Position numbers and translations under genes: made by a program
The notes under the pieces: model-generated
The model's input: only the letters and a program-made list of their open reading frames with translations
Told to the model about the DNA's origin: nothing
Database searches by the model: none
In this document: positions 26,160 to 46,852 of the stretch, in pieces
Numbering within the stretch: position 1 is the stretch's first letter
Layout of the letters: the number at the start of each line of letters is the position of its first letter
From: Candidatus Eisenbacteria bacterium
Lineage (GTDB): Bacteria > Orphanbacterota > Orphanbacteria > Orphanbacterales > Orphanbacteraceae
Length of the DNA stretch: 50,917 nucleotides
Direction of reading: 5' to 3'
Assembly (NCBI GenBank): GCA_016930695.1
Contig: JAFGGD010000006.1
Span: forward strand, 1-50,917

Positions 26160-26975
26160 ATGCGGGAAAAAACGGCCCTCCGGCGGCGGAAGACGCCTCT
26201 CCGGCGCACCATGGACGCGGCCCGGATTCTCGGGTGGATCGTCCTCGCGGCGGTGCTTACTTTCTGCGTCGCCCGCGCCGCCCGCGGGGAGACGCCCGCG
26301 CCGGATCCTCTCGAGGTTTGCGTCGATCTTTATTGGGAGGGGCGCTTCGACGAGGCGATCGACCGGCTCGGGACGCTCACCGAAACGCTCACCGGCGCCG
26401 AACGCCTGCGGGCCTACGAGTTCCTCGCCCGTTCGCTGGTGCGGACCGGCGCGCGGGAAGCCGCGGGCGAGGCGTTCAAGACGATCCTCCGCGCCGATCC
26501 GGAGTGGCGGCCGGACCGGCAGATGTTGGCCGAGCCGGAGTGGAGCGCCTTCGAGGATGTGCTCGAGGAATTCCGTAACGAGAACCTGGGCGGACTGAAC
26601 GTCCGGACCGAACCGTCGCGGGCGCAGATCTATTTCGACGGCGAAACGCAGGCGGGGCTTACCCCCTTCACTCTGGAGCGGCTCCCCGCCGGGGAGCACG
26701 CGATTCGTCTGGAGAAAGACGGCTACATACCGTTCGATACCACCCTCGTCGTGATCGCCGCCGAGACTTCCATGCTCGAGGTGGAGATGGAGGCCGCCGC
26801 CGAAGGGGACGGGGCGCCCGTCCCGTTCTGGAAAAACCGTTGGGTGCGGGTCACCGGCGGCGTGCTCGGCGCGGGCCTTCTCATCGCCCTCTTGGGCGGC
26901 GGGGGCGGCGATGGCGACGGCGACGGCGACGGCGCCGCCACTCTTCCCGATTTCCCCGAGCCTCCCGGCCGGTAA
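26160..26975 (+). CDS. PEGA-domain membrane protein with TPR-like N-terminus
   Basis: This 271-residue protein has an N-terminal hydrophobic signal (about 22-43), a TPR-like helical region (CVDLYWEGRFDEAIDRL and onwards, about 50-135), a PEGA domain (LNVRTEPSRAQIYFDG, then LPAGEHAIRLEKDGY, about 142-212), and a C-terminal transmembrane segment (GVLGAGLLIALLGG) followed by a Gly-Asp repeat tail. PEGA domains are surface-layer or periplasmic modules. It starts 11 bases after the tail-fibre-like gene and closes that three-gene operon, so a role in anchoring or handling those surface proteins is plausible. The start used is the ATG at 26160 behind AGGAGG; an internal ATG at 26211 is also possible. 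Confidence 0.75.
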   Translation: MREKTALRRRKTPLRRTMDAARILGWIVLAAVLTFCVARAARGETPAPDPLEVCVDLYWEGRFDEAIDRLGTLTETLTGAERLRAYEFLARSLVRTGAREAAGEAFKTILRADPEWRPDRQMLAEPEWSAFEDVLEEFRNENLGGLNVRTEPSRAQIYFDGETQAGLTPFTLERLPAGEHAIRLEKDGYIPFDTTLVVIAAETSMLEVEMEAAAEGDGAPVPFWKNRWVRVTGGVLGAGLLIALLGGGGGDGDGDGDGAATLPDFPEPPGR

Positions 26976-26982
26976 GTGGTTG

Positions 26983-26991
26983 TGGTACACT
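26983..26991 (+). promoter_or_regulatory. Extended -10 promoter for the PLP dehydratase
   Basis: TGGTACACT begins eight bases after the PEGA gene stop. It gives a leader of about 30 bases to the ATG at 27028, so the dehydratase can be transcribed separately. Confidence 0.45.
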
Positions 26992-27027
26992 GGGCTTCGC
27001 GGCGGTGGGCCGCCGTGGAGTCCCGCC

Positions 27028-27996
27028 ATGAAAGAACCGACCATTCGCGAGATCCGTGAGGCGCAGGATCGCATACGTCCTCACACGCACCGCACGCCCC
27101 TCCTGACCTGTGCCGCCCTGGATCGCGAGGGGGGCGCCCGTTTTTACTTCAAGTGTGAAAACTTTCAAAAGGTCGGCGCCTTCAAGGCGCGGGGAGCGAC
27201 GAACGCCGTTTTCCTGCTCGGCGCGGAGGAGGCGACCCGGGGCGTGGCGACGCATTCCTCGGGAAACCATGCGGCGGCGCTCGCCCTGGCCGCTCGGAGC
27301 CGCGGCGTCCCCGCCTATGTGGTGATGCCCCGCACCTCGCCGCGCGTGAAAGTGGAGGCGGTGCGGGGCTACGGCGCGGAGATCGTTTTCTGCGAGCCGA
27401 ACCTGGAGGCGCGGGAGCGCGGCCTCGCCGAGGTGGTCGCGCGGACCGGCGCCGCCTTTATCCACCCCTACGACGACCCGCGGGTGATCGCCGGCCAGGG
27501 GACGGCGGCGGCGGAGATGATCGAGGACGGACCGGAACCGATGGACGCGGTGATCGCGCCGGTCGGCGGCGGCGGTCTTCTCTCGGGCACGGCGCTCGCC
27601 TTCGCCGCCCTCTCGCCGCGCACGGCGGTGATCGGCGCCGAGCCGAAGGGGGCGGACGACGCGTACCGATCGCTCCGGGAGGGGAAGATCCTCCCCTCCG
27701 TCGAGCCGCGCACCGTGGCGGACGGTCTGCTCACGTCCCTCGGACGGCACACCTTTCCGATCCTGCGGAGGCTCGTGCGTGAGATCGTAACCGTTGAAGA
27801 AGAAACGATCCTTCGGGCCATGCGGCTCGTCTGGACGCGCATGAAGATCGTCATCGAGCCGTCGGCTGCGGTCGCCTTCGCCGCGGCGCTGGAACGACCG
27901 GATCTCTTCGTGGCGCGGTCCGTGGGCGTGATCTTCTCGGGCGGGAACGTGGATCCGGACCGTCTTCCGGAGATGGGCTTCGGCGGCGCGGACTGA
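27028..27996 (+). CDS. Threonine/serine dehydratase or serine racemase-like PLP enzyme
   Basis: This 322-residue fold-type II PLP enzyme carries the Schiff-base Lys K53 in KVGAFKARGA, the SSGNH phosphate-loop (77-81), GQGT (157-160) and the cofactor-binding GGGGLLSG (180-187). Length without a regulatory ACT domain fits catabolic threonine ammonia-lyase or serine racemase. It would deaminate L-threonine to 2-oxobutanoate or L-serine to pyruvate, or racemise serine; the motifs do not separate these. An upstream open frame adds 39 low-complexity codons overlapping the previous gene and was rejected. It converges on the kinase gene, with 43 bases between. Confidence 0.88.
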   Translation: MKEPTIREIREAQDRIRPHTHRTPLLTCAALDREGGARFYFKCENFQKVGAFKARGATNAVFLLGAEEATRGVATHSSGNHAAALALAARSRGVPAYVVMPRTSPRVKVEAVRGYGAEIVFCEPNLEARERGLAEVVARTGAAFIHPYDDPRVIAGQGTAAAEMIEDGPEPMDAVIAPVGGGGLLSGTALAFAALSPRTAVIGAEPKGADDAYRSLREGKILPSVEPRTVADGLLTSLGRHTFPILRRLVREIVTVEEETILRAMRLVWTRMKIVIEPSAAVAFAAALERPDLFVARSVGVIFSGGNVDPDRLPEMGFGGAD

Positions 27997-29984: not shown

Positions 29985-30887
29985 TTAGGCGCCCGGGGAG
30001 GATGCCCGGGCGTCCACCGCCCGCCGGATCGCCCGGACGTGGTCCGGCGTCGTGCCGCAGCAGCCGCCGATGATCGACACGCCCGCGTCGAGCAGGTCCC
30101 GGGTCTTTTCTCCGAAGAAGGCGGGGGATTCGGAGTAGACGAGGCGGTCCTCCTCGGTGACGGGGAGGCCGGCGTTGGACTGGATCAGGAGGGGCCGGTC
30201 GGTGTGGTGGCGGAAATCGCGGGCGATGCGGATCATGTTCAAGAGCCCGTTGCCGCAGTTGGAGCCGAGGATGTCCGCGCCCGCCTCCTCGAGGCCGCGG
30301 CAGACCTGCTCGATCCCCTGGCCCATGATGGTGAAGAAACCCTTCGGCGTCGGATCGAAGGTAAGGGTGGCCGCCGTCGGGATGCCGGGGGCGACCTTCT
30401 TGGCCGCCCGCACCGCCAGCCGCGCCTCGGCGAGATCGGTCATCGTTTCGATGACGACGAGGTCGATCCCCGCGTCCGCCAGCGCCCCGATCTGCCGCTC
30501 GAAGGCGGCGGAGATCCGGTCCGGGTCGGCGTCGCCGTAGGGCTGAAGCATCAGGCCGGTGGGGCCGCAGCTGGCGGCCACGTAAACCTTCTCGCCGGCG
30601 CCTCGCCTCGCCGCGCGCACCGCCGCCCGGGCGATCTCCTCGGTCTTCTCCTCCAGGCCGTGCCGGGCGAGCGCGAGGGGCGAGCCGCCGAGGGTGTTGG
30701 TGAGGACGATGTCGGCGCCCGCTTCGGCGTAGAGGCGCGCGATCTTCTCGGGCAGCTCCGGCCGCTCCAGGTTGACCGCCTCGGAGCAGGCGCCCGGCTC
30801 GAGCCCTTCCGCCATCAGGAGCGTGCCGGTGGCGCCGTCGCCGACCAGAACCTCCCCCGCTTCGAGTCTCTCCAAAAGGGCCCGCAT
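29985..30887 (-). CDS. Homocysteine S-methyltransferase (MetH N-terminal-type domain)
   Basis: The 300-residue TIM barrel matches the homocysteine-binding module of cobalamin-dependent methionine synthase. Zinc-ligand cysteines are C211 (GSNCGNG) and C276-C277 (GGCCGTT). Their 65-residue spacing equals that of Thermotoga MetH (C207, C272, C273 as I recall). It would transfer a methyl group from a methylcorrinoid to homocysteine, giving methionine. The ATG at 30887 overlaps the corrinoid gene stop in a TGATG junction, so the two are translationally coupled; a GTG one codon earlier is less natural. A stand-alone betaine- or S-methylmethionine-using enzyme is possible in principle, but the tight link to a corrinoid protein argues for methylcobamide as donor. 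Confidence 0.88.
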   Translation of the reverse strand: MRALLERLEAGEVLVGDGATGTLLMAEGLEPGACSEAVNLERPELPEKIARLYAEAGADIVLTNTLGGSPLALARHGLEEKTEEIARAAVRAARRGAGEKVYVAASCGPTGLMLQPYGDADPDRISAAFERQIGALADAGIDLVVIETMTDLAEARLAVRAAKKVAPGIPTAATLTFDPTPKGFFTIMGQGIEQVCRGLEEAGADILGSNCGNGLLNMIRIARDFRHHTDRPLLIQSNAGLPVTEEDRLVYSESPAFFGEKTRDLLDAGVSIIGGCCGTTPDHVRAIRRAVDARASSPGA

Positions 30888-31528
30888 CACCCCTCCGATT
30901 CGATGAGCAGCTTGACCCGGTCCACGGCGCTCGCCGCGTCGTAGGCGTAGGCGTCGGCGCCGATTCGCCGGGCGAACTCCTCCGACACCGGCGCGCCGCC
31001 CACGATCACGCGGGCGCGCCCGCGGAGCCCCTTCTCCTCGAGATGATCCACCGTCTTCTTCATGTTCGTCATGGTGGTGGTGAGGAGCGCGGACATGCCG
31101 ATCACGCGCGCCCCTTCCCGCTCCACCGCCTCGGCGAAGCGCTCCGGAGACACGTCGTTCCCGAGGTCGATCACGTCGAAGCCGGCGCCGCGCAGCATGA
31201 TACCCACCAGGTTCTTGCCGATGTCGTGCAGGTCTCCCTTCACCGAGCCGATCGCCACGCGCCCCCGCGGAGGCGCCCCCTCGGAGAGAAGGAGCGGCTT
31301 CAGCTCGTCCATGCCGGCGTACATCGCCTTGGCCGCCATCAGCACGTCGGGGAGAAAGATTTCGTGACGTTTGAACTTTTCTCCGACGACCGCCATGCCG
31401 GCGATCAGGCCTTCGTCGAGGATCTCTTTCGCCGGGAGCCCGTCCTCGACGGCGCGCCGGGTCAGCTCCAACACGCGCTCCGGTTCTCCGCGCTCCAGCG
31501 TTTCCGCGATCTCTTGCAGCAGTTCCAT
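30887..31528 (-). CDS. MetH/MttC-type corrinoid (B12-binding) methyl carrier protein
   Basis: The 213-residue protein has a helical cap domain (1-85) and a Rossmann cobalamin domain (86-213). The base-off motif is GDLHDIG with H101 as the lower cobalt ligand, plus SALLTTTM (146-153) and VGGAPV (177-182), all standard for MtgC/MttC/MtaC and the MetH B12 module. It shuttles a methyl group between two partner enzymes. The long open frame continues upstream, but MELLQEIAETLERGE at the ATG (31528) is the family start, with AGGAGA just upstream. It lies 59 bases after the activation-domain gene and overlaps the homocysteine methyltransferase gene. Confidence 0.93.
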   Translation of the reverse strand: MELLQEIAETLERGEPERVLELTRRAVEDGLPAKEILDEGLIAGMAVVGEKFKRHEIFLPDVLMAAKAMYAGMDELKPLLLSEGAPPRGRVAIGSVKGDLHDIGKNLVGIMLRGAGFDVIDLGNDVSPERFAEAVEREGARVIGMSALLTTTMTNMKKTVDHLEEKGLRGRARVIVGGAPVSEEFARRIGADAYAYDAASAVDRVKLLIESEG

Positions 31529-31587
31529 GCTCCGGTCTCCTCTTCCCGATGATCGGCCCGGACGACGTTCCGCCCGAGCCGGGCGGT

Positions 31588-32301
31588 TCAGTCGTCGCCG
31601 AGCGCGGCGATCCGGTCCCGGCAGGTGCGGTCCCGGCAGCCCCGGCAGAAGGGATAGCGCGCCTCGAACCGGTGGATCCGGGCGGGTCCGGAGAGGAGCG
31701 CGCCCGACACCGATTTGAGGGGGTCCATGAGAAAACTTTCCCGGAGGCGGATCCCGATCTCCTCCGGCCGCAGCCGCGTGAAGAGGCGGCGTTGGGCGCT
31801 CACGTGCCACCCGCAGTAGCCGGGGGAATAGGCGAGCACGTGCCGGGCGGGATCTTCGCCCCGTTCCCGGTCCAATCGTTCCCGGAAGCGAGCCTCCACC
31901 GCGGTGACGGCGCGATCCGCCGCTTCGGAGGCGGCGGCGTCGAGCATCGCGCCGAGCGCCGGATCGCCGCCGTCGAAGAGCGCCGCGATCCGGTCGCACA
32001 CCGCCTGCCCGAGGGTGAGCGCGAAGAGCGCCCGGTCCTCGGCGACCGGCTCGATCCGGTCCAGGGGGGTTTCCGGTTCGTTCATCCCCTCGCCGGCGTA
32101 GGCGGCGGCGAAATCGGCGCGGGTCACCTCCTCGAAGAGGGCGACGGGGCGCCCTTCGTCGTCCATCATCCGGATCGCCTCGACGGCCATCCGTTCGGTG
32201 CGCGCGGAGAGGGGCGCGTCCGGAGGCACGCCCTGCGCGCGGAGCACCGCGCCGATGTCCGGCCGGATCGCCTCCGGGGGAATGGAAAAGATTTCACGCA
32301 T
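31588..32301 (-). CDS. MetH-activation-domain-like protein with Cys-rich tail
   Basis: The 237-residue protein resembles the AdoMet-binding reactivation domain of MetH as a free-standing protein. SPGY (159-162) parallels the RxxPGY AdoMet loop, IGIRLRESFLMDP (182-194) and KSVSG (196-200) parallel the GIxLTESxAMxP..SVSG region. The C-terminus adds a CxxCxxxxC motif (C219, C222, C227) absent from MetH, perhaps for an Fe-S cluster or metal. In MetH this domain rescues oxidised cob(II)alamin by reductive methylation with AdoMet; methylamine systems normally use RamA-type Fe-S ATPases instead, and none is present here. It sits six bases after the MttB-family gene, with no obvious Shine-Dalgarno, so translation is probably coupled. 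Confidence 0.8.
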   Translation of the reverse strand: MREIFSIPPEAIRPDIGAVLRAQGVPPDAPLSARTERMAVEAIRMMDDEGRPVALFEEVTRADFAAAYAGEGMNEPETPLDRIEPVAEDRALFALTLGQAVCDRIAALFDGGDPALGAMLDAAASEAADRAVTAVEARFRERLDRERGEDPARHVLAYSPGYCGWHVSAQRRLFTRLRPEEIGIRLRESFLMDPLKSVSGALLSGPARIHRFEARYPFCRGCRDRTCRDRIAALGDD

Positions 32302-32307
32302 AAAAGA

Positions 32308-33768
32308 TTAGGCGTCCCGCGGCGGCAGGCGGTCCATGCCGGCGCGACGCGCTTCCCCCTCCATCAGGCGAACCAGTTCGCGGCGGACGTCGTCGCCCAG
32401 CGCCGGCGGCTCCCAGGCGGCGACCAGGCGTTCCACCTCGTCGTGGGCGCGCTCCCGGATCGTGCGTCCCCCCTCTTCCAACCAGCGGGGACGGTTCGCC
32501 CTGTCGATCGCCGGCCCCGGGAACGTAATCTCGTCGCGCAGGTGCTTCCGGGTGTGGTCGCTGATGAGCAGGTGCTTCTCCCGGAGCAGCTCCTCGAAGA
32601 TCGGGCGGGCGGGGAAGTCCTCCCGGGGTTCGATGCCCCGGATCATGCGGAGCGTCATGCCGCAGATCTCATTGTCCACCACGAGTTTTTCCAGGCTCTG
32701 GCAACTCTCGAAGTCGAGCATGCCCGGACCGGAAACGTTGTTGATGCCCGCGAGGGCGGCGAGGGTCGCGCCCATGGACGTCTCCAGGCCGGCCTGGGCG
32801 TCGAGGCGCTTGGCGTCGCTCAGGGCGATGTAGGCCTGGGTCGGCAGGCCGAGTTTCTTGCCGATCTCGTTGTAGGCGCAGTCGATCATCATTGTTTCGA
32901 CGGCGCCCATCGGCGTGGTTTCATAGCGCAGGTCGAAGACCGCCGGCGATCCGCCGTAGAGGACCGGCGCGCCGGGACGGGCGAGTTGGGAAAGCACCAA
33001 CCCGGAGAGGGTCTCGGCGGTGTGCTCCACCAACGAGCCGACCAACGTGACCGGCGCCATGAAGCCGGAGAGAGGCATGCTGATGAACTCGACGGGGATC
33101 ATCGCGCGGGCGCAGTCCATCACGTTCTGGGATGTGACGTCGCTCCATTTGAGGGGGGATGTGGGGCAGCAGGAGAAAATAGTGAGCGGTTCGGCGGCCA
33201 GATCCTCGGCGGAGCCGCGCACCGCCACCTGCATGTCGCGCATTACACCGAAGGCGTCGATGGTGAAGGCGCCGGTCACCACCGGTTTCACGCCGTGCAG
33301 AAGACCGAGGAAGAGGCGGTAGCTGTCGCTCACGTTCTCATCCACGTCCGCCGGGATGAAAGCGGTGCTTTGGGAGGCGATGTTCGCGAGGCCGTCGACG
33401 AGTTTCGCGTAGCGGATATAGTCGGCCGTGTCGGGACGGCGGATGCGGCCCGTCTCGTGGTCGAGCACGTTGAGCGCCGCCGAGCCGGGGGTGAAGTGCA
33501 CCCTGTCTCCGGAGAGGTCGAGCGCCTCCCGGCCGAGAGTATCGAACAGACGGAACCCGGAGGGGGCGGACTTCACCGCGCGATCCACCAGCTCGTCGGG
33601 GATGTAGGCGCGTTTCGTCTTCCGGTCGATCCGGGCGCCGTGCCCGGCCAGCAGTTCGAGGGCGGCGTCGTTATGGATCTCCACGCCCAGTTCGCGCAGA
33701 ATGTCCCGCCCCTCGGCGAGGATCCGGTCGATCAACTCGTCGGTGAGAAAACGGACGGACGGCCTCAT
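32308..33768 (-). CDS. MttB-family (trimethylamine/quaternary amine) methyltransferase without pyrrolysine
   Basis: This 486-residue protein belongs to the MttB superfamily: FLTDELIDRILAEGRDIL at the N-terminus, FTPGSAALNVLDHETG, PLKWSDVTSQNV, EFISMPLSGFMAPVTLVG and SGPGMLDFESCQSLEKLV are typical stretches. True trimethylamine methyltransferases carry an in-frame amber codon for pyrrolysine around residue 330; this frame has none, so it belongs with the non-Pyl members such as MtgB, which demethylate glycine betaine, proline betaine or carnitine. It would transfer a methyl from a quaternary amine to the corrinoid protein. The ATG at 33768 follows GGGAG; an upstream frame of 66 codons is unsupported. 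It is first in a four-gene operon with a promoter near 33855-33884. Substrate unknown. Confidence 0.9.
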   Translation of the reverse strand: MRPSVRFLTDELIDRILAEGRDILRELGVEIHNDAALELLAGHGARIDRKTKRAYIPDELVDRAVKSAPSGFRLFDTLGREALDLSGDRVHFTPGSAALNVLDHETGRIRRPDTADYIRYAKLVDGLANIASQSTAFIPADVDENVSDSYRLFLGLLHGVKPVVTGAFTIDAFGVMRDMQVAVRGSAEDLAAEPLTIFSCCPTSPLKWSDVTSQNVMDCARAMIPVEFISMPLSGFMAPVTLVGSLVEHTAETLSGLVLSQLARPGAPVLYGGSPAVFDLRYETTPMGAVETMMIDCAYNEIGKKLGLPTQAYIALSDAKRLDAQAGLETSMGATLAALAGINNVSGPGMLDFESCQSLEKLVVDNEICGMTLRMIRGIEPREDFPARPIFEELLREKHLLISDHTRKHLRDEITFPGPAIDRANRPRWLEEGGRTIRERAHDEVERLVAAWEPPALGDDVRRELVRLMEGEARRAGMDRLPPRDA

Positions 33769-33854
33769 GGCGTCTCCCTTCCGGATGAGAATCCCCGCGC
33801 GGGTCGTCCCGGTCGGCGGCCCCGATCCCGCGCCCTTCGATGGTGAGGCCTTCC

Positions 33855-33884
33855 ATTGTCGCAGGGGCGCGGCGGACCGGTCAA
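33855..33884 (-). promoter_or_regulatory. Promoter for the methyltransferase operon
   Basis: Minus strand TTGACC (33884-33879), 18-base spacer, GACAAT (33860-33855). The leader of about 80 bases contains a GCGCGGG/CCCGCGC inverted repeat (33797-33803 and 33827-33833). Confidence 0.45.
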
Positions 33885-33903
33885 GCGCCGCCGCCTTGGG
33901 GCC

Positions 33904-33932
33904 TTGGGCGCATTCCTCTCCTGTATTATAAT
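33904..33932 (+). promoter_or_regulatory. Promoter for the class V PLP enzyme, back-to-back with the operon promoter
   Basis: TTGGGC (33904-33909), exactly 17 bases, then a perfect TATAAT (33927-33932). The start codon is at 33981, giving a leader of about 40 bases. The -35 boxes of this and the opposite promoter are only about 20 bases apart. Confidence 0.55.
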
Positions 33933-33980
33933 CGGCGGCGCGACCGGCAGGATCGAAACCCCGCACCCGAGGATGAACCG

Positions 33981-35714
33981 ATGAGAGAGCGCTCCATGCT
34001 TCCGCAGATCACGCTGAGCGCCCTCCACCGCGAGGTGGTGGGGTGCAATTTCCGCTACGCCACCCCCTTCGGGAAACGCCTGCTGGTTTACACCGACTAC
34101 ACCGCCTCGGGGCGAAACGTGCGTTTTCTGGAGCGTTACCTGATGAAGATTCAGGAGAGCTACGCCAACACGCACACCGAGGATGACGAGACCGGCCGGA
34201 GCACCACCGAGATGCTTCATCTGGCGGAGAAGATCATCAAGCGCGAGGTGAACGGCGACGAGAACACCTGCGTCATCGCCGTGGGAAGCGGGACCACCGG
34301 CGCGATCCAGAAGCTTCAGGAGATCCTCGGCGTCTACGCGCCGCCGGCTCTCAAGGACCGTTTGGAGAGGGGCGCGGAGGAGCACGACCGGGCGCGCGGC
34401 GGCGGCGCGGCGCGGACCTTTCTGGAAGCGTGGAAACGGCGGGCGCCGGTGGTTTTCATCGGTCCCTACGAACACCACTCCAACGACATCTCTTGGAGGG
34501 AAGCGTTCGCGGAAACGGTAATGATCGGCCTCGCGCCGGACGGTGGGATGGACCTAAAGGATCTGGAGCGCAAGGTCTCGGACCGGAGGCACGACGGTCG
34601 CCTCAAGATCGGCAGTTTCTCGGCGGCGTCCAACGTCACCGGAGTGAAGACTCCGGTTTACGAAGTCGCCCGCATCCTGCACCGCCACGGCGCTCTCGTC
34701 TGTTTCGATTTCGCCGCGAGCGCCCCCTACGTGGAGATCGACATGAACCGGGACGGCGACTCCTACTTCGACGCCGTCTTCCTCTCGCCGCACAAGTTCC
34801 TGGGCGGACCGGGGTCGAGCGGCATCCTTCTTTTCCACCGCGGGGTCTATCGGACCGACCTCCCCCCCACCTTCGGCGCCGGCGGCACGGTGGACTACGT
34901 GAGCGCCGTCGCCCACGACTACAGCGCCGACATCGAAACGCGGGAAAAATCGGGCACGCCGGGGACCCTGCAGGTGATGAAGGCGGCGCTCGCCATGGAG
35001 CTGAAGCACGCCGTCGGCGTGGACGTGATCGAGCGGCGCGAGAGGACCTACCTCGGCCGCGCCCTCGAGAGGATGAAGGCGGCGCCGAACCTGGAGATCC
35101 TCGGCGATCCCAAGCCGGAGACGCACCTCGCCATCGTCTCTTTCAACATCCGGCATGACGAGCGATACCTTCACCCCAAGCTGGTCACCCGCCTCTTCAA
35201 CGACCTCTTCGGGATCCAGTCGCGGGCGGGCTGCTCCTGTGCGGGGCCCTACGGCCACGCGCTCCTCGGCATCGACGAAACATCCTCCGAGCGGTACCGC
35301 TGCCAGATCCATGCCGGCTTTCAGGGGATCAAACCGGGCTGGGTGCGGATCGGCTTTCATTACGTCCTCGACGAGATCGATTTCGATTACATCCTGCGGG
35401 CGGTTGAATTCCTCGCCGAGAAGGGGCATCTCTTCCTGCCGCTCTATCGTTTCGAAACCGCCACGGGCACCTGGACCGCCATCGAGGAGGGGTGGGAGGA
35501 GGATGCGTCCTTCGGGATCGCCGAGGCGCTCGGCGGGGAGAACGCGCTCCGGGATTGTCTGACCGACGAAAAGAGGAAGGCGGAGTACGACCGTTACATC
35601 GAGGAGGCGAAGCGCATCGCCGCCGGGCTGGAAGAGGAAGGCCCGCCGGAATACCGCGAACTCCCCGAGGAGATTCGGGAACTCGGCTTCTTCCATGTGG
35701 TGGAGTGGGAATAG
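33981..35714 (+). CDS. Class V aminotransferase-fold (cysteine desulfurase/SufS-like) PLP enzyme
   Basis: The 577-residue protein is a fold-type I PLP enzyme with K272 in SPHKFLGGPGSSG as the Schiff-base Lys, FDFAAS upstream of it, and a Cys-containing loop SRAGCSCAGPYGH (C418, C420) where cysteine desulfurases keep the catalytic Cys. It is about 170 residues longer than IscS/SufS because of insertions and a C-terminal extension after residue 460. A desulfurase or cysteine-lyase-like reaction is likely but not proven. The ATG at 33981 fits the start MRERSMLPQITLSALHREV; the earlier ATG at 33840 precedes the promoter. It is divergent from the methyltransferase operon. A sulfur-supply link to methionine synthesis is a guess. 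Confidence 0.75.
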   Translation: MRERSMLPQITLSALHREVVGCNFRYATPFGKRLLVYTDYTASGRNVRFLERYLMKIQESYANTHTEDDETGRSTTEMLHLAEKIIKREVNGDENTCVIAVGSGTTGAIQKLQEILGVYAPPALKDRLERGAEEHDRARGGGAARTFLEAWKRRAPVVFIGPYEHHSNDISWREAFAETVMIGLAPDGGMDLKDLERKVSDRRHDGRLKIGSFSAASNVTGVKTPVYEVARILHRHGALVCFDFAASAPYVEIDMNRDGDSYFDAVFLSPHKFLGGPGSSGILLFHRGVYRTDLPPTFGAGGTVDYVSAVAHDYSADIETREKSGTPGTLQVMKAALAMELKHAVGVDVIERRERTYLGRALERMKAAPNLEILGDPKPETHLAIVSFNIRHDERYLHPKLVTRLFNDLFGIQSRAGCSCAGPYGHALLGIDETSSERYRCQIHAGFQGIKPGWVRIGFHYVLDEIDFDYILRAVEFLAEKGHLFLPLYRFETATGTWTAIEEGWEEDASFGIAEALGGENALRDCLTDEKRKAEYDRYIEEAKRIAAGLEEEGPPEYRELPEEIRELGFFHVVEWE

Positions 35715-35812: not shown

Positions 35813-36595
35813 CTATGGGAGCCATTTCCTGCCCCAGCCTTCGATTCTACCTTTCGGGTCTCTATGGTATTTCTTTGATTCCAGAATTGCGGCGATCTGG
35901 CCTCCAAAGGTTTCGGGGAGTTTTTCTTTTTGCTTCTTGGTCACACAAGCCCGAAAGCTCGGATGTGCAATCATGTCGGCAAGTTGAAGACCGGCTATGT
36001 TGTTTTTCTTGTTTTTTACTTTCAATTGTCTGCTGGTCAGCCTTTCTTGAACCAGCTCAACTGGGACATACTCGGTTCCCTCAACGTGAATACGAGCAAA
36101 GGACTCCTTTAGCCTTAGGTCTTCTTTGCCCCCGCGCGATTCAGCCATTACATCGCCCAAAGCATGTTTTGAATTCAGGAATAGCACAAAACGTTCTACT
36201 AAAATTCTTAGACAATAATGATAGGGATCAAAAAGCCAGGTTGTATAGCGGCGCTGATGTTCGTGTTTGTCGATTGCCACGGTGATTACTCTATATTCCC
36301 ACTTGGCGAGCAAGGACAGGAGTGTTTTATTAAACAAGATGTTCTTGCTTGGGTCCTTCAAGACTGCGAACGGTCCACTCTTGCGGATTAAATCTTTGCG
36401 ATGAAGAACAACGGGGTCGTCGGGATGATTAAGAAAGAACTTTGATTTGAAGGATTCCAATTCCGGAAACAGTATGTCGTTCACATGCTGTAGGTCGATG
36501 ATTATCCCGGTTAGGCTGAGATGTCTGTGTAAAGGATTGGTCGAGCAAGCGATTCCGGAATTCCCGACCTCGTCGATATACATGCGGTACTTCAT
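35813..36595 (-). CDS. DUF3800-domain protein on a low-GC segment
   Basis: The 260-residue protein carries the DUF3800 marks: an acidic YIDEVGNSG at the N-terminus (D8, E9), MAESRGGKEDLRL in the middle and LQLADMIAH near the C-terminus. The acidic residues suggest an RNase H-like or nuclease-type metal site, as proposed for the family, but the function is not established; such genes often occur in defence or mobile regions. Base composition is about 40-50% G+C, well below its neighbours, and codon use includes AT-ending codons rare elsewhere, indicating horizontal acquisition. I chose ATG 36595 (MKYRMYIDEVG) as the family-consistent start; one 15 codons upstream is possible. No other mobile-element gene is visible. 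Confidence 0.8.
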   Translation of the reverse strand: MKYRMYIDEVGNSGIACSTNPLHRHLSLTGIIIDLQHVNDILFPELESFKSKFFLNHPDDPVVLHRKDLIRKSGPFAVLKDPSKNILFNKTLLSLLAKWEYRVITVAIDKHEHQRRYTTWLFDPYHYCLRILVERFVLFLNSKHALGDVMAESRGGKEDLRLKESFARIHVEGTEYVPVELVQERLTSRQLKVKNKKNNIAGLQLADMIAHPSFRACVTKKQKEKLPETFGGQIAAILESKKYHRDPKGRIEGWGRKWLP

Positions 36596-36747
36596 GATCT
36601 GTGTGGTGCCTTGGAGAAAACACGCTTTTGAAAAGCGCAAGATCCAAGAGGTCGAGCCCAGTGTATCCTAACACAGAAATCGGATTCTTCGAAATGGGTC
36701 GTTGTCTGGGTAGGTTCCGGGGTTTGCCGGCCCGCACGTTCGATCAA
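36596..36747. other. Upstream flank of DUF3800 gene
   Basis: On the minus strand, TACACT (near 36660) may be a -10 box. A CGCTTT-TCA-AAAGCG hairpin near 36625 lies in the presumed leader. Base composition returns to GC-rich by about 36710. Confidence 0.35.
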
Positions 36748-41565: not shown

Positions 41566-42240
41566 TCAGTCGCAGCCGTCCAGCTTGCAGAGGGCGCAGT
41601 TGCCGCAGTCCTGTTCCCGCGGCGGTTCGTAGACCTCGCCGGCCCGAATCGCCCGCCGTTCCTCCAGCTTGTTCATCAGGGCCAACAGGAAACCGAGGGA
41701 GAGGAACGCGCCCGGAGGCAGGATCATGACCAGCATGGGGAGAAAGCGGTCGCCGAAAACGGAGAAGCCGAGAACGGTCCCGTTGCCGAAGATCTCCCGC
41801 ACGCCGCCGAGCACCATCAGCCCGATCGTGAAGCCGAGCCCCATCCCGATCCCGTCCAGGAGGGAGTCGAGAACCCCGTTTCGGCTGGCGAACGCCTCGG
41901 CCCGGCCGAGGATGATGCAGTTCACCACGATGAGGGGGATGAAGAGCCCGAGGCTTTTGTGGAGGTCGTAGAAGTACCCGTGCATCACCAGGTCCACGAC
42001 GGTCACGAAGGTGGCGATCACCACGATGAAGGCGGGGATCCGCACCTTCTTGGGGATGAAGCCGCGGAGCAGCGAGATGATCCCGTTGCTGCAGATGAGC
42101 ACGAAGGTGGTGGCGAGCCCCATGCCGAGACCGTTCACCACGGAAGTGGTCACCGCCAGCGTGGGGCACATGCCGAGCACGAGCCGGAAGATCGGGTGGT
42201 CCTTCCAGAGACCGCGCAGCAGAATGTCCGTTCTACTCAT
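41566..42240 (-). CDS. rnfE: Ion-translocating electron transport complex subunit RnfE
   Basis: The 224-residue protein has six transmembrane helices and the half-channel sequence shared with RnfA/NqrD. Conserved membrane cysteines C25 (GMCPTLAV) and C108 (VNCIILG) would hold the intramembrane Fe-S cluster together with RnfA. The C-terminus is unusual in ending with four cysteines (C212, C215, C218, C223, spaced CxxCxxCxxxxC) after the last helix. The ATG at 42240 (MSRTDILLRGLWKDHPIF) overlaps the end of rnfG by eight bases; a frame starting at 42291 adds an Arg-rich leader without support. It is the last gene of the operon. Confidence 0.93.
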   Translation of the reverse strand: MSRTDILLRGLWKDHPIFRLVLGMCPTLAVTTSVVNGLGMGLATTFVLICSNGIISLLRGFIPKKVRIPAFIVVIATFVTVVDLVMHGYFYDLHKSLGLFIPLIVVNCIILGRAEAFASRNGVLDSLLDGIGMGLGFTIGLMVLGGVREIFGNGTVLGFSVFGDRFLPMLVMILPPGAFLSLGFLLALMNKLEERRAIRAGEVYEPPREQDCGNCALCKLDGCD

Positions 42241-42898
42241 CGCCCACCCTTTCCTCGGCCGTCGCCGTTGCCGCGTCCTCCGTTCCGTCACCGCCGGGCG
42301 CCGCGCCGCCGTAACCGGCGGAGGCCTCGAGAATCGCCGGCAGGTCCTCCCGGAAGCGGTTCATCGCCGCCGCGAGCGCGCCGCAGACCGCCCGCCCCGT
42401 CACGGTGGCGCCGCTGATCGCGTCGATCGGACCGCCGTCCTTCTTCACCCGCCAGTCCGTTCCGACCAACGGTCGGCCGACGTAAAACTCGTTCAGCAAA
42501 GCCGCGTCGGCGTACTTGGCCCCCAGGCCGGGCGTTTCGGCGTGGCGGAGGATCCGCATCCCCGTAAGGTTTCCCTCCGCGCCCACGCCGATCATGCTCA
42601 CGATCTCGCCCGAGTAGCCGTCGTAGGTGACCGCCTTGAAGGCGGCGCCGGCGTACCGTCCGTCCTTGATGCCGATGTGATAAGTGGCTTCCTCGGCCGT
42701 CCCCTCGCGGGTCACCGCCGTGTCCTCCACAGGCTTGTTGTCGAAGGCGGGAAGGACCGCCTCGATGGCCGCCACCTCCGCCGCGTTCTCCGCCAGAAGG
42801 ATCGGTTCCCGCGTTATGCCGTTCACCTGGGTCAGCAGGAGGGCGGCGACCGCGCAGATCAGCGCGAGCCGGAGCGAGAGATTCAACATGTCCTTCAT
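42233..42898 (-). CDS. rnfG: Rnf complex flavoprotein subunit RnfG
   Basis: The 221-residue protein has one N-terminal transmembrane helix (about 8-24) and a periplasmic FMN-binding domain. AISGATVT (160-167) holds T165, the expected covalent FMN site. GLGAKYAD and FYVGRPL are standard family blocks. The C-terminal ~20 residues are an acidic, Gly/Ala-rich extension (GGDGTEDAATATAEERVGDE). Start and rnfD stop overlap as ATGA. RnfG relays electrons between the membrane Fe-S centre and RnfD/RnfE. Confidence 0.93.
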   Translation of the reverse strand: MKDMLNLSLRLALICAVAALLLTQVNGITREPILLAENAAEVAAIEAVLPAFDNKPVEDTAVTREGTAEEATYHIGIKDGRYAGAAFKAVTYDGYSGEIVSMIGVGAEGNLTGMRILRHAETPGLGAKYADAALLNEFYVGRPLVGTDWRVKKDGGPIDAISGATVTGRAVCGALAAAMNRFREDLPAILEASAGYGGAAPGGDGTEDAATATAEERVGDE

Positions 42899-44019
42899 GC
42901 CGCCTTCGCCTCCTCATAAGTCTTGCGCGTCCCGAAGACACGCGGCTTGGTGTATCGGTCGATCAGCGGAACCGCCGCGTTCATCAGCAGGATGGCGAAA
43001 CTCACCCCCTCCGGGTAACCGCCCCAGAGGCGGATGACGGCCGTCAGCAGGCCGCAGCCGAAACCGAAGATGAGCATCCCCTTCTTGGTTACCGGCGACG
43101 ACACCCAGTCGGTGGCCATGAACACCGCGCCGATCCAGAGGCCGCCGGTCAGCACGTGGAACATCGGGGGGGCGTAACGTTCCGGCGAGGCCCAGTGGGC
43201 GATCCCGGTGAAGACGAAAACGGTCAGGATGAAACTGGCCGGGATGTGCCAGCTGATGATCTTGCGCCAAACGAGATAGAGCCCGCCGAGGGCGAGAAAG
43301 AGGACGCTCACCTCGCCGAGGCTTCCGGAGCGGTTTCCGATGAACAGATCCGTGAGGGGCGCCAGGTTCAGTTCGCTGAGAGGCGTGCCGAGGGAGATCG
43401 CCTCCTTGATCGCGCCGAGGGGGGTCGCGCCCGTCGCGGCGTCCACGGTGAACCAGCCGCTCGCGCCGCCCGGCAGCGCCCAGTTGGTGAGCTGCACCGG
43501 GAAACTGATCAGCAGGAAAACCCGCGCCACCAGCGCTGGATTGAAGGGATTGTATCCCAGGCCGCCGTAGATCTGCTTCGCCAGCACGATGGCGACGAGC
43601 GCGCCGAGCAGCACCATCCAGGAAGGCGTCGTGGCGGGCAGGTTCATGGCGAGGAGCAGGCCGGTCACCAGGGCGCTCCAGTCGCCCACGGAGCTCGGTT
43701 TCTTCAGCAGCCGCTGCCATCCCCACTCGAAAAAAGCGCAGCCGATCATCGAGAGGGCGATCACGCGCACCCCGTTGATGCCGAAAAACCAGATCCCCGC
43801 CAGGGCGGCCGGGATCAAAGCGTAGACCACGGCGCGCATCGCCCCCGGCACCTCTTCGGGGGAGTGCACGTGAGGCGAGCTGCTCATCAGGAAAAGGGGC
43901 GCCTTGGGCGGCGTCTTCTTCTCCGGTTTCTGCGGTTTCGGGCTCTCCGCCGGTTTCCCCTCGTTCGGGGCGGGCCTCGGGGCGCCTCCCTGTTCTTCCG
44001 TCAAAACCGATTCCTCCAT
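42895..44019 (-). CDS. rnfD: Rnf complex membrane flavoprotein subunit RnfD
   Basis: The 374-residue protein has an N-terminal Pro/Lys-rich cytoplasmic extension of about 45 residues and then nine to ten transmembrane helices. DAATGATPLGA (193-203) contains T199, the covalent FMN site in RnfD/NqrB. GYNPFNPALVARVFLLISFP and MATDWVSSPVTKKG match the family. The N-terminal extension is longer than in E. coli RsxD and is not explained. It begins 31 bases after rnfC. Confidence 0.95.
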   Translation of the reverse strand: MEESVLTEEQGGAPRPAPNEGKPAESPKPQKPEKKTPPKAPLFLMSSSPHVHSPEEVPGAMRAVVYALIPAALAGIWFFGINGVRVIALSMIGCAFFEWGWQRLLKKPSSVGDWSALVTGLLLAMNLPATTPSWMVLLGALVAIVLAKQIYGGLGYNPFNPALVARVFLLISFPVQLTNWALPGGASGWFTVDAATGATPLGAIKEAISLGTPLSELNLAPLTDLFIGNRSGSLGEVSVLFLALGGLYLVWRKIISWHIPASFILTVFVFTGIAHWASPERYAPPMFHVLTGGLWIGAVFMATDWVSSPVTKKGMLIFGFGCGLLTAVIRLWGGYPEGVSFAILLMNAAVPLIDRYTKPRVFGTRKTYEEAKAA

Positions 44020-44050
44020 GCCCGCCCGAAGCGGAACCGAGGATAATGGA

Positions 44051-45376
44051 TTACGACGCGGCTTCTTTCCGCCGCTTCAGAATCTCCCGCACCTCCACCT
44101 TGCCCCGCCGGATGAACTGGACCAGCGGCCGCGAGGAAGGGCACGTCCAGGCGCAACTCCCGCACTCCATGCAGTCGGCGAGATTGTACGCGCAAAGCTC
44201 TTCCCAGCGTTCCCGTTCCGCCAACAGCCCCATGACGCTCGGCGTGAGCCCCATCGGGCAGACGTCGATGCACCGGCCGCAGCGGACGCACGCCTTGGTC
44301 GTGTACTGATAAATCTCCGCCCGGGGGAAGCAGAGCACGCCGCTCGTCCCCTTGATGGCGGGCGCCTCCAGCGAATGTTGGGCCACGCCCATCATCGGGC
44401 CTCCCAGGATCACCTTCGTCGCGTCGTCGTTCAGGCCGCCGCAGAACTCGAGGATGTCCGCCAGGGGCGCGCCGACCCGGAAGAGCACGTTCTTCGGCTG
44501 CCGGATTCCGTTGCCGGTGACGGTGGCGACCCGCTCGATCAGCGGAATCCCCTTTTCGACGGCGTCGAAAGCCGCTTTGGCGGTCCCCACGTTCTGCACC
44601 AGGCAGCCCACGTCCATCGGCAGGCCGCCGGAAGGGACCTCCCGCCCGGTGAGCGCGCGGATCAGGTGCTTCTCGGAGCCCTGCGGATACTTCGTCTCTA
44701 AAAAGACCAGCTCTGTCTTCACGTCCGCCGGGCACGCCTTCTCGAGCGACTCGTAGGCGTCGGGCTTGTTGTTTTCCACTCCGATAAAGGCGCGTTCCAC
44801 GCCCAGAGTCTTCATGAACAGGCCGACCCCCTCCATCACCTCCCCGGCGTGTTCCAGCATCACCCGGTGGTCGCTGGTCAGGAAAGGCTCGCACTCGGCG
44901 GCGTTCAGGATGAAGGTGCGGATCGGCTTGTCTTTCGGCGGACTCAGTTTGACGTGCGTCGGGAAGGTGGCGCCCCCCATTCCGACGAGGCCGGCGTCGC
45001 AGAGGATCTTCTTGACCGCGTCCGCGTCCAGCCCGCGCCACTCGCCGCGGGGCTTTACCCCTTCCCACCACTCGTCCGCGCCGTCCGACTCGATCTCCAC
45101 CGCCGGCATCGTCCGCCCCATCGGGTGCGGGAACTCGCCGACGGATTTCACCTTGCCGCTGGTCGGCGCATGCACCGGCACGGAAACGAAACCGGCGGCC
45201 TTGGAGAGCGGTTCCCCCCGCTTCACCTCCTGCCCCTTTTCGACGATCGCCTCGCCGGGCGCGCCGAGGTGCTGCGACAGAGGGACCACGTACCGTCCGA
45301 GAAGGGGCATCTCCTCGATCGGGGCGCCGGCGGTGTCCTTGTTGTACTTGGGATGAATCCCCCCGTGGAACTTCAT
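44051..45376 (-). CDS. rnfC: Rnf complex NADH-interacting subunit RnfC
   Basis: The 441-residue peripheral subunit has FHGGIHP at the N-terminus, the nucleotide-binding GMGGATFPTHVK, NAAECEPFLTSDHR, and two 4Fe-4S motifs, CVRCGRCIDVCP and CMECGSCAWTCP. It is the site of NAD+ reduction or NADH oxidation. Length matches the shorter anaerobe type, without the long repetitive C-terminus of some proteobacterial RnfC. The ATG start overlaps the rnfB stop in TGATG. Confidence 0.96.
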   Translation of the reverse strand: MKFHGGIHPKYNKDTAGAPIEEMPLLGRYVVPLSQHLGAPGEAIVEKGQEVKRGEPLSKAAGFVSVPVHAPTSGKVKSVGEFPHPMGRTMPAVEIESDGADEWWEGVKPRGEWRGLDADAVKKILCDAGLVGMGGATFPTHVKLSPPKDKPIRTFILNAAECEPFLTSDHRVMLEHAGEVMEGVGLFMKTLGVERAFIGVENNKPDAYESLEKACPADVKTELVFLETKYPQGSEKHLIRALTGREVPSGGLPMDVGCLVQNVGTAKAAFDAVEKGIPLIERVATVTGNGIRQPKNVLFRVGAPLADILEFCGGLNDDATKVILGGPMMGVAQHSLEAPAIKGTSGVLCFPRAEIYQYTTKACVRCGRCIDVCPMGLTPSVMGLLAERERWEELCAYNLADCMECGSCAWTCPSSRPLVQFIRRGKVEVREILKRRKEAAS

Positions 45377-46239
45377 CACTCACCTCCGCCGGAAGCCGAA
45401 GCCGCGGCATCTTCCTTCGTCGCCGGGATCGGGATCGGGCTTCCGTCCAGGCTGATCGCCCGGATCGCGCCCGTGGGGCACTCACCGGCGAGGGCCGGAT
45501 CGGACGGCGGGTCGTCGTACTTGATGCGGGCGAGGAAACCGTCCATTTCGATGTGTTCCTCGCCGGCGACCTTCTGGCACTTTCGGCACGCGATGCACGC
45601 CACTTGGCACGCCTTGCGCGCCGCCGCCCCCTTGTCCTTGTTGCTGCAGAGAATGTGGACGCGCGCCGTCACCGGCACGAGCCGGATCAGGTTCTTGGGA
45701 CAGGCTTCGACGCAGTTGCCGCAGCCGGTGCACCGCTGCCGGATCACTCGGGCGACTCCACCCTCGGTGATCTCGATCGCCCCGAAGGGGCAGGCGCGCT
45801 GGCAGTCGCCGAAGCCGAGGCAGCCGTAGGAGCAGAGCTTTTGTCCTCCGGCGAGCTGGGCCGCCGAGGCGCAGGTGGCGCTTCCGTTGTAGAGGAACTT
45901 GACCGGCGCGACGTCGTCCGTTCCCTGGCAGAGCACCAGCGCCATCTTCGCCACGTGGGCGGAGGCGTCGGCGGACATCCCCATGATCTCGGCGATCTTG
46001 AAAGTCGTCTCCATGCCCCCGACCGGGCAACCGTTCGGCGGGGCGAGCCCTTTCACGACGGCGGCGGCGAAGTCGCTGCATCCGGCGAAGCCGCAGCCGC
46101 CGCAATTGGCGCCGGGAAGAGCGTCGAGGACCTTTTCCTGGCGCGGGTCCGTCTCGACCGCGAAGAACCGGGCGGCCAGGGCGAGGCCGAAGCCGGCGAC
46201 CAATCCGAGACCCGCGAGAACCGAAACCGCAATGATCAC
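45376..46239 (-). CDS. rnfB: Rnf complex ferredoxin-type subunit RnfB
   Basis: The 287-residue protein has an N-terminal transmembrane helix (about 1-24), the RnfB-type cluster motif NCGGCGFAGCSDF with a later NGCPVGG, and several ferredoxin motifs: CSYGCLGFGDCQRACP, CTGCGNCVEACP and CIACRKCQ with a downstream CPTGAI. It accepts electrons from reduced ferredoxin. The start appears to be GTG at 46239; no ATG gives the full helix. The C-terminal tail (ATKEDAAASASGGGE) is extra. It starts 34 bases after rnfA. Confidence 0.95.
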   Translation of the reverse strand: MIIAVSVLAGLGLVAGFGLALAARFFAVETDPRQEKVLDALPGANCGGCGFAGCSDFAAAVVKGLAPPNGCPVGGMETTFKIAEIMGMSADASAHVAKMALVLCQGTDDVAPVKFLYNGSATCASAAQLAGGQKLCSYGCLGFGDCQRACPFGAIEITEGGVARVIRQRCTGCGNCVEACPKNLIRLVPVTARVHILCSNKDKGAAARKACQVACIACRKCQKVAGEEHIEMDGFLARIKYDDPPSDPALAGECPTGAIRAISLDGSPIPIPATKEDAAASASGGGE

Positions 46240-46273
46240 TTGAGGGCCCCTCTCGCGAAAACCGTGAACGTGT

Positions 46274-46852
46274 TTAACCCTTCACCAAGCCGCTGAAACC
46301 CTGGAACGCCAAGGACAGAATGCCCGCCGTCACGAGGGCGATGGCGGTTCCCCGGAAAACCTTGGGCGTGTCCGCAAGATCCAACACCTCCCGGATGCCG
46401 GAGAAGAGAATCAGGGCGAGGCCGAAGCCGCCCGCGCCGGCGACGGAAAAGACCAGCGTTTCCAGGAGGGAGTGCTCGAGCTGGATGTTCATCATCGCCA
46501 CGCCGAGCACCGCGCAGTTGGTGGTGATCAGGGGGAGGAAAATCCCCAGCGTCTTGTGGAGCGTCGGGCTGAGCTTCTGCAGCGCCAGCTCCACGAGCTG
46601 AACCATCGCCGCGATGATGAGAATGAACGCCAGGGTTTGCAGGAAAAGCAGATCGAAGGGCTTGAGCAGATAGTGAAACACCAGCCAGCTGACCACGCTG
46701 GCCAGGCCCATCACGAAGAGCACCGCGCCGCTCATGCCGAGCGCCGTGGAGAGTTTCTTGGAAACGCCCAGGAAGGGACAGATCCCCAGAAACCGCACCA
46801 GGACCAAGTTGTTGACGAACAGGGCGCTGATGACGAGAACGAGATAACTCAT
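46274..46852 (-). CDS. rnfA: Ion-translocating electron transport complex subunit RnfA
   Basis: The 192-residue protein has six transmembrane helices and matches RnfA/RsxA/NqrE in length. C25 in LGICPFLGVS and the later TTNCAVLG Cys are the conserved intramembrane cluster ligands. GAGGFGLALILFSGIRE is typical of the second half. It is the first gene of an rnfABCDGE operon, the gene order of gamma-proteobacterial rsx/rnf rather than the clostridial CDGEAB order. A weak promoter is at 46904-46933. Confidence 0.96.
   Translation of the reverse strand: MSYLVLVISALFVNNLVLVRFLGICPFLGVSKKLSTALGMSGAVLFVMGLASVVSWLVFHYLLKPFDLLFLQTLAFILIIAAMVQLVELALQKLSPTLHKTLGIFLPLITTNCAVLGVAMMNIQLEHSLLETLVFSVAGAGGFGLALILFSGIREVLDLADTPKVFRGTAIALVTAGILSLAFQGFSGLVKG

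Follow-up and report, generated by a model that had tools for sequence, protein, structure and literature searches.

A conserved four-gene unit as a candidate corrinoid-dependent methionine synthase with an MttB-family methyltransferase

Methionine supplies AdoMet, and every cell needs a methyl source to make it. What source might serve a set of four adjacent genes that encode three MetH-like parts as separate proteins, together with an MttB homologue and no pterin-binding partner? These genes lie on the minus strand of the window, the whole stretch of 50,917 nucleotides of Candidatus Eisenbacteria DNA that was analysed. Pfam and NCBIfam scans identified all four, in the order given by the original prediction, which had read them as a MetH taken apart and fed by an MttB-type enzyme instead of folate.

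32308 to 33768, minus strand: MttB-superfamily methyltransferase without pyrrolysine, 486 aa, the proposed methyl donor:corrinoid methyltransferase (PF06253, 257.6 bits)
31588 to 32301, minus strand: stand-alone MetH-type activation (AdoMet-binding) protein, 237 aa, with SPGYCGW and a C-terminal CxxCxxxxCxxR (PF02965, 29.7 bits)
30887 to 31528, minus strand: corrinoid (cobalamin) methyl carrier, 213 aa, with a base-off DxHxxG motif that includes H101 (PF02607 and PF02310)
29985 to 30887, minus strand: zinc-type homocysteine S-methyltransferase, 300 aa, with its ATG at 30887 (PF02574, 207.6 bits)

The carrier and homocysteine methyltransferase genes share a TGATG at 30889-30885, with the ATG of the latter inside it, and the translational overlap described earlier is therefore real. 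Judged from sequence, the explanation that best fits the whole, with a probability of about 0.72, is that the four genes form one operon and would encode a corrinoid-dependent methyl donor:homocysteine methyltransferase, which is a methionine synthase.

The identity of the genes, the conservation of the unit and the gene content of the genomes can be read from the sequences themselves. A search of 84,980 species genomes with an MttB alignment found 80 loci at 64-74% identity. By the lineage labels in the MAG records these came from Planctomycetota/Phycisphaerae, Aminicenantes, Acidobacteria, WOR-3/Stahlbacteria, Zixibacteria, Fermentibacteria/Aegiribacteria, Cloacimonadota, Neomarinimicrobiota, Eisenbacteria, Gemmatimonadota, KSB1, Bacteroidetes and others. 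The four genes were in the same order and on the same strand in 45 of the 56 loci that could be tested, those whose sequence extends 2.6 kb or more beyond MttB on its downstream side, and these covered a dozen or more phylum-level lineages. Gene order is kept far beyond chance. The presence of the unit in independent genomes rules out an assembly artefact. Median intergenic gaps were -4, 21 and 1 nt in the 46 complete clusters, and clustering of the flanking ORFs found only the four genes to be widely shared among loci. A MetH-type pterin query had no match in any of 84 loci, so the expected co-occurrence of the four families with no pterin partner beside them was borne out. The four proteins give correlated pairwise distances (Spearman 0.40-0.56, against a permutation maximum of 0.28), a result that shared genome ancestry would also produce.

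Some loci vary. The activase gene was upstream of MttB in two (L101 and L123) and was not found in three (L107, L115 and L117), while the homocysteine gene was missing from the unit in L060, L092, L099, L108, L122, L125 and L133, with L108 and L133 holding MttB alone. Units without the homocysteine gene occurred in 7/34 genomes with another MetH/MeTr-type pterin protein and in 0/18 without one (one-sided p 0.04, two-sided 0.08, uncorrected for relatedness).

The MttB homologue scored 257.6 bits against PF06253, where the cut-off is 25, and 364.9 bits against TIGR02369, which is under that model's cut-off of 525 and sets it apart from the pyrrolysine TMA enzymes. Its frame is open throughout, as had been claimed, and the lack of an in-frame amber codon rules out a pyrrolysine enzyme. 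In alignment, the pyrrolysine position of M. barkeri MttB is Leu316 here, and is leucine in 80/81 homologues and methionine in 1/81. Foldseek matched the model of the protein to 7XCL (MttB), 9YCE (MtgB) and 2QNE with a TM of ~0.87, giving the MttB TIM-barrel fold. The protein belongs to the non-pyrrolysine branch of the MttB superfamily (PF06253/COG5598).

The methyl donor would be a small methylated compound, most likely a methylated amine; the quaternary amine of the original prediction may be the donor, but only by inference. Substrates have been identified for six members of the superfamily, and each is a methylated amine (PMC12155760). A docking model of MtgB proposed Y94, N199, R309 and H345 as its glycine betaine residues (PMC6855144), and in the window's MttB subfamily these align with invariant S96, C201 and Q311 and a gap. 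The subfamily thus lacks the betaine residues, as defined by that docking model only. This replacement is one of three observations that favour a reading we think doubtful, in which the MttB homologue takes its methyl group from a donor that the cell possibly makes itself, not from an environmental amine, and the unit would serve as a general methionine synthase that draws its one-carbon units from elsewhere. The others are the conservation of the protein (60-98% identity across the 46 complete clusters, with 186 positions conserved at ≥95%), which a catabolic enzyme would not usually show across lineages of phylum rank, and the flanking-ORF clustering, which found no betaine or transport genes conserved beside the unit. 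Against it stand the six characterised amine-using relatives and the dependence of the residue argument on docking.

The corrinoid carrier has both PF02607 and PF02310 and the motif D99-x-H101-x-x-G104, with the histidine where it was predicted. Its best NCBIfam match was MtgC (NF047996, 216 bits, below the cut-off), it fell short of the cut-offs of all the several MtgC/MttC-type models that it matched, and among solved structures a predicted cobalamin-binding protein, 1Y80, is closest. The homocysteine methyltransferase matched PF02574, and its predicted zinc ligands C211, C276 and C277 were invariant in 50/50 homologues. There was no PF01717 match, which rules out a MetE-derived core synthase (MesA-D). 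The nearest solved structure is the MetH N-half of T. maritima TM0268 (1Q7M, 8e-51). The original prediction had the parts arising by dissection of MetH, and this is not supported: the homocysteine protein shares only 29-36% identity with its MetH and fusion homologues in the phylum, and the carrier is closest to the MtgC/MttC-type models.

Could the homocysteine enzyme instead use betaine (or DMSP) directly, with the MttB-corrinoid pair a separate system next to it by chance? P. inhibens Bmt, from the same broad family, does accept both betaine and DMSP as direct donors in vitro (PMC12366255), and the window enzyme reached 210.7 bits against the best BHMT-type model, PRK07534. However, that model's cut-off is 338, leaving the protein short of a BHMT equivalog score; the MetH half (176 bits) is nearer than the human BHMT structure (64 bits), and the adjacency of the carrier has been kept over many lineages with near-zero gaps. 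We regard direct methylation by this enzyme as very improbable.

The third MetH-like part, the activase, scored only marginally above the PF02965 cut-off (29.7 bits against 25). Its AlphaFold2 model (pLDDT 95.9) agrees with its assignment as a MetH-activation-domain protein, matching the stand-alone TM0269 (1J6R, E 1.8e-11) and also the MetH activation domains of E. coli, human and Thermus. Both the fold and the SPGY motif of the predicted AdoMet site are kept, which places it among the MetH activation domains. C163, within SPGYCGW, is present in 68/68 homologues, and C219, C222 and C227 (CxxCxxxxCxxR) in 67/68. These four near-invariant cysteines possibly form a redox or metal site, perhaps Fe-S, to judge from their pattern. 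T. maritima TM0268 and TM0269 likewise have the activation domain separate from MetH, and the activase is closest to TM0269 in both sequence and fold. In contrast, TM0269 works with a MetH that uses folate, and where the activase has its SPGY cysteine the aligned TM0269 sequence has none. Elsewhere in the window, 42233-46852 on the minus strand holds an Rnf-type operon encoding RnfC-, RnfD-, RnfB- and RnfA/E-like proteins and an FMN-binding RnfG-like protein. It is a possible supplier of low-potential electrons.

Taken as a methionine synthase, the unit would work around its carrier; we infer the reactions, their direction and the donor. The MttB homologue would take the methyl group of a small methylated compound and load it onto the carrier's Co(I), and the zinc homocysteine enzyme would take it from methyl-Co(III) to give methionine. 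A carrier that had slipped to Co(II) would be re-methylated or reduced by the activase with the help of AdoMet and perhaps of a metal site of its own.

Whether folate is excluded depends on the genome. The window's own genome has two PF00809 proteins, a probable dihydropteroate synthase on contig C33 and a MetH-type pterin protein on contig C30. The latter, of 302 aa, adjoins a 622-aa homocysteine methyltransferase::MTHFR fusion (L008, 9117-10025 and 9997-11865). It shares 46-49% identity with the pterin domain within the full-length MetH of relatives, which adjoins the same fusion at the matching place. On this sequence evidence, the folate module is apparently all that the genome retains of MetH. 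The claim that there is no pterin-binding partner is thus true of the window, but not of the genome. Similarly, three MetH modules plus MttB do make one conserved unit, with no MetH-type pterin gene in it, but the pterin module is encoded elsewhere in the same genome. As for metH and metE themselves, the unit consists of separate proteins, full-length MetH was seen only in relatives, and MetH is apparently reduced here to the module on C30; no MetE (PF01717) match was found in this genome or in G003, G005 and G006.

The window's activase is the only PF02965 protein found in its genome, and the carrier is the sole PF02607 match and the only methyl-carrier corrinoid protein detected there. With a MetH-type pterin protein and an MTHFR fusion on C30, methyl-THF can plausibly feed the window carrier. 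As no other methyl-carrier corrinoid protein was detected, this carrier probably serves both methyl-THF and the MttB donor, by analogy with the MtgBCDE system of Ruegeria. The reduced MetH would then probably act as a second entry for methyl groups, from methyl-THF, alongside the MttB homologue.

A series of seven genomes from the phylum shows a range of combinations. Full MetH and the fusion, with no MttB homologue or unit, were found in G001, G002 and G004. G003 has MetH, the fusion and the unit, while G000 has the unit, the fusion and the bare pterin module. G005, listed as 100% complete, has the unit alone, with no MTHFR, MetH or MetE found, and G006 is similar except that the contig ends within its unit. 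Next to the unit, a divergent class-V aminotransferase gene (SufS-like) is present both in the window (33840-35714, plus strand) and in G003 (L012, 5392-7179, minus strand). Two further genes of the window are a DUF3800 gene (35813-36640, minus strand), which is likely a recent acquisition because its GC3 of 0.52 is far below the ~0.85 of its neighbours, and a plus-strand gene (26911-27996) for a PLP enzyme that matches beta-hydroxyaspartate dehydratase BhcB best (453 bits, below the cut-off of 550).

The wider set of 50 genomes, reached through the loci, was searched for PF00809, PF02219 and PF01717. PF00809 matches were present in 46/50. Six full-unit genomes of this set that carry dihydropteroate synthase had no MTHFR (PF02219), no MetE-type protein (PF01717) and no MetH/MeTr-type pterin domain: G007 (L079), G028, G030, G039, G040 and G054. 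With G005 from the phylum series they make seven. These absences were called at family level in draft genomes, with G007 a closed chromosome. In these seven the unit is the only methionine synthase that the searches for these families could find, which supports the folate-free reading. Without MTHFR, the known route between methyl groups and the methylene-THF pool is closed in both directions; the homocysteine enzyme is then the one outlet found, and the unit would be biosynthetic there. In lineages that have lost MTHFR and MetH, the unit is probably the only methionine synthase and would have no need of methylfolate. Folate-independent synthesis, as originally proposed, therefore agrees with the gene content of these seven genomes, but is unsupported for the window's own, with its pterin protein and MTHFR fusion.

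The other genomes of the set differ. G010 (L114, closed chromosome) and G019 have no MetH or MetE but do have an MTHFR match, and MetE-family proteins are present in G011, G015, G016, G041, G044, G046, G047 and G050. Pterin matches beyond dihydropteroate synthase in the remaining genomes were mostly frames of MetH length. Most unit genomes have PLP enzymes of Cys/Met metabolism, none of which passed the O-acetylhomoserine sulfhydrylase cut-off (TIGR01326); the paralogues under it resemble cystathionine gamma-synthase/lyase or methionine gamma-lyase. Even if a genome had an MtgA like that of D. hafniense, which we take to be of the MtrH family, that enzyme could not make methyl-THF out of methylene-THF where MTHFR is lacking, and in G005 no homocysteine enzyme other than that of the unit was found. 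The D. hafniense protein has no sequence identity to solved structures (PMC7154762).

The closest known system is MtgBCDE, in which a carrier common to MtgB and a homocysteine module has a precedent (PMC12478193). There too a stand-alone MttB homologue and a homocysteine enzyme are arranged around one carrier, the genes are colocalised in S. meliloti, and MtgB-, MtgC- and MtgE-type proteins are all present at the window locus. The unit might then be of the same kind, the MttB homologue mainly feeding THF through a remote pterin module, the homocysteine enzyme mainly using methyl-THF in reverse, and folate central. Ruegeria needs its pterin module, MtgD, for both functions (PMC12478193), and the pterin module and MTHFR fusion on C30 could provide this in the window's genome. 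Yet the unit itself has no pterin gene and none was ever near it in the 84 loci. A counterpart of MtgD (PF00809 beyond dihydropteroate synthase) was not found in G005 and other genomes, while the window's genome has a MetH-derived pterin module outside the unit. In the seven genomes lacking both MTHFR and a MetH-type pterin domain, neither a supply of methyl-THF nor oxidation through methylene-THF is expected. We consider such a folate-centred role unlikely. Reactivation also differs, MtgBCDE using RamA-like DUF4445 and DUF1638 proteins with no PF02965 protein in P. inhibens, whereas the window unit has a PF02965-type activase. The lack of a pterin gene, the activase of its own and the occurrence in genomes without MTHFR, unlike MtgBCDE, set the unit apart as a variant of that system.

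Other systems share single features with the proposed methionine synthase. The anaerobic MtgABC, MtqABC (with MtpB/MtcB/MtyB) and MthABC systems also pair a non-pyrrolysine MttB homologue with a carrier (PMC7154762, PMC12155760, PMC6855144), but pass the methyl group to THF or coenzyme M for energy, and no homocysteine enzyme is part of the system described. The core synthases MesA-MesD make methionine without a folate-binding module, and MesA and MesB probably rely on corrinoid proteins (PMC7857596, PMC7005905). They derive, however, from the MetE catalytic domain (PF01717), whereas the window enzyme is of the MetH/BHMT type (PF02574). No description of the four-gene unit was found in the open-licence literature.

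We put forward only tentatively, as a combination that may well not hold in full, a folate-free MetH-type synthase with an MttB donor enzyme acting on a non-betaine substrate and a Cys-ligated (perhaps Fe-S) activase, spread through at least a dozen mostly uncultured lineages and replacing MetF, MetH and MetE entirely in several. A methionine synthase that bypasses MTHFR and methylfolate would explain how several uncultured lineages without metF, metH and metE make methionine, and predictions of auxotrophy would change for many metagenome-assembled genomes. An enzyme of the MttB family would also have a role in biosynthesis rather than in catabolism.
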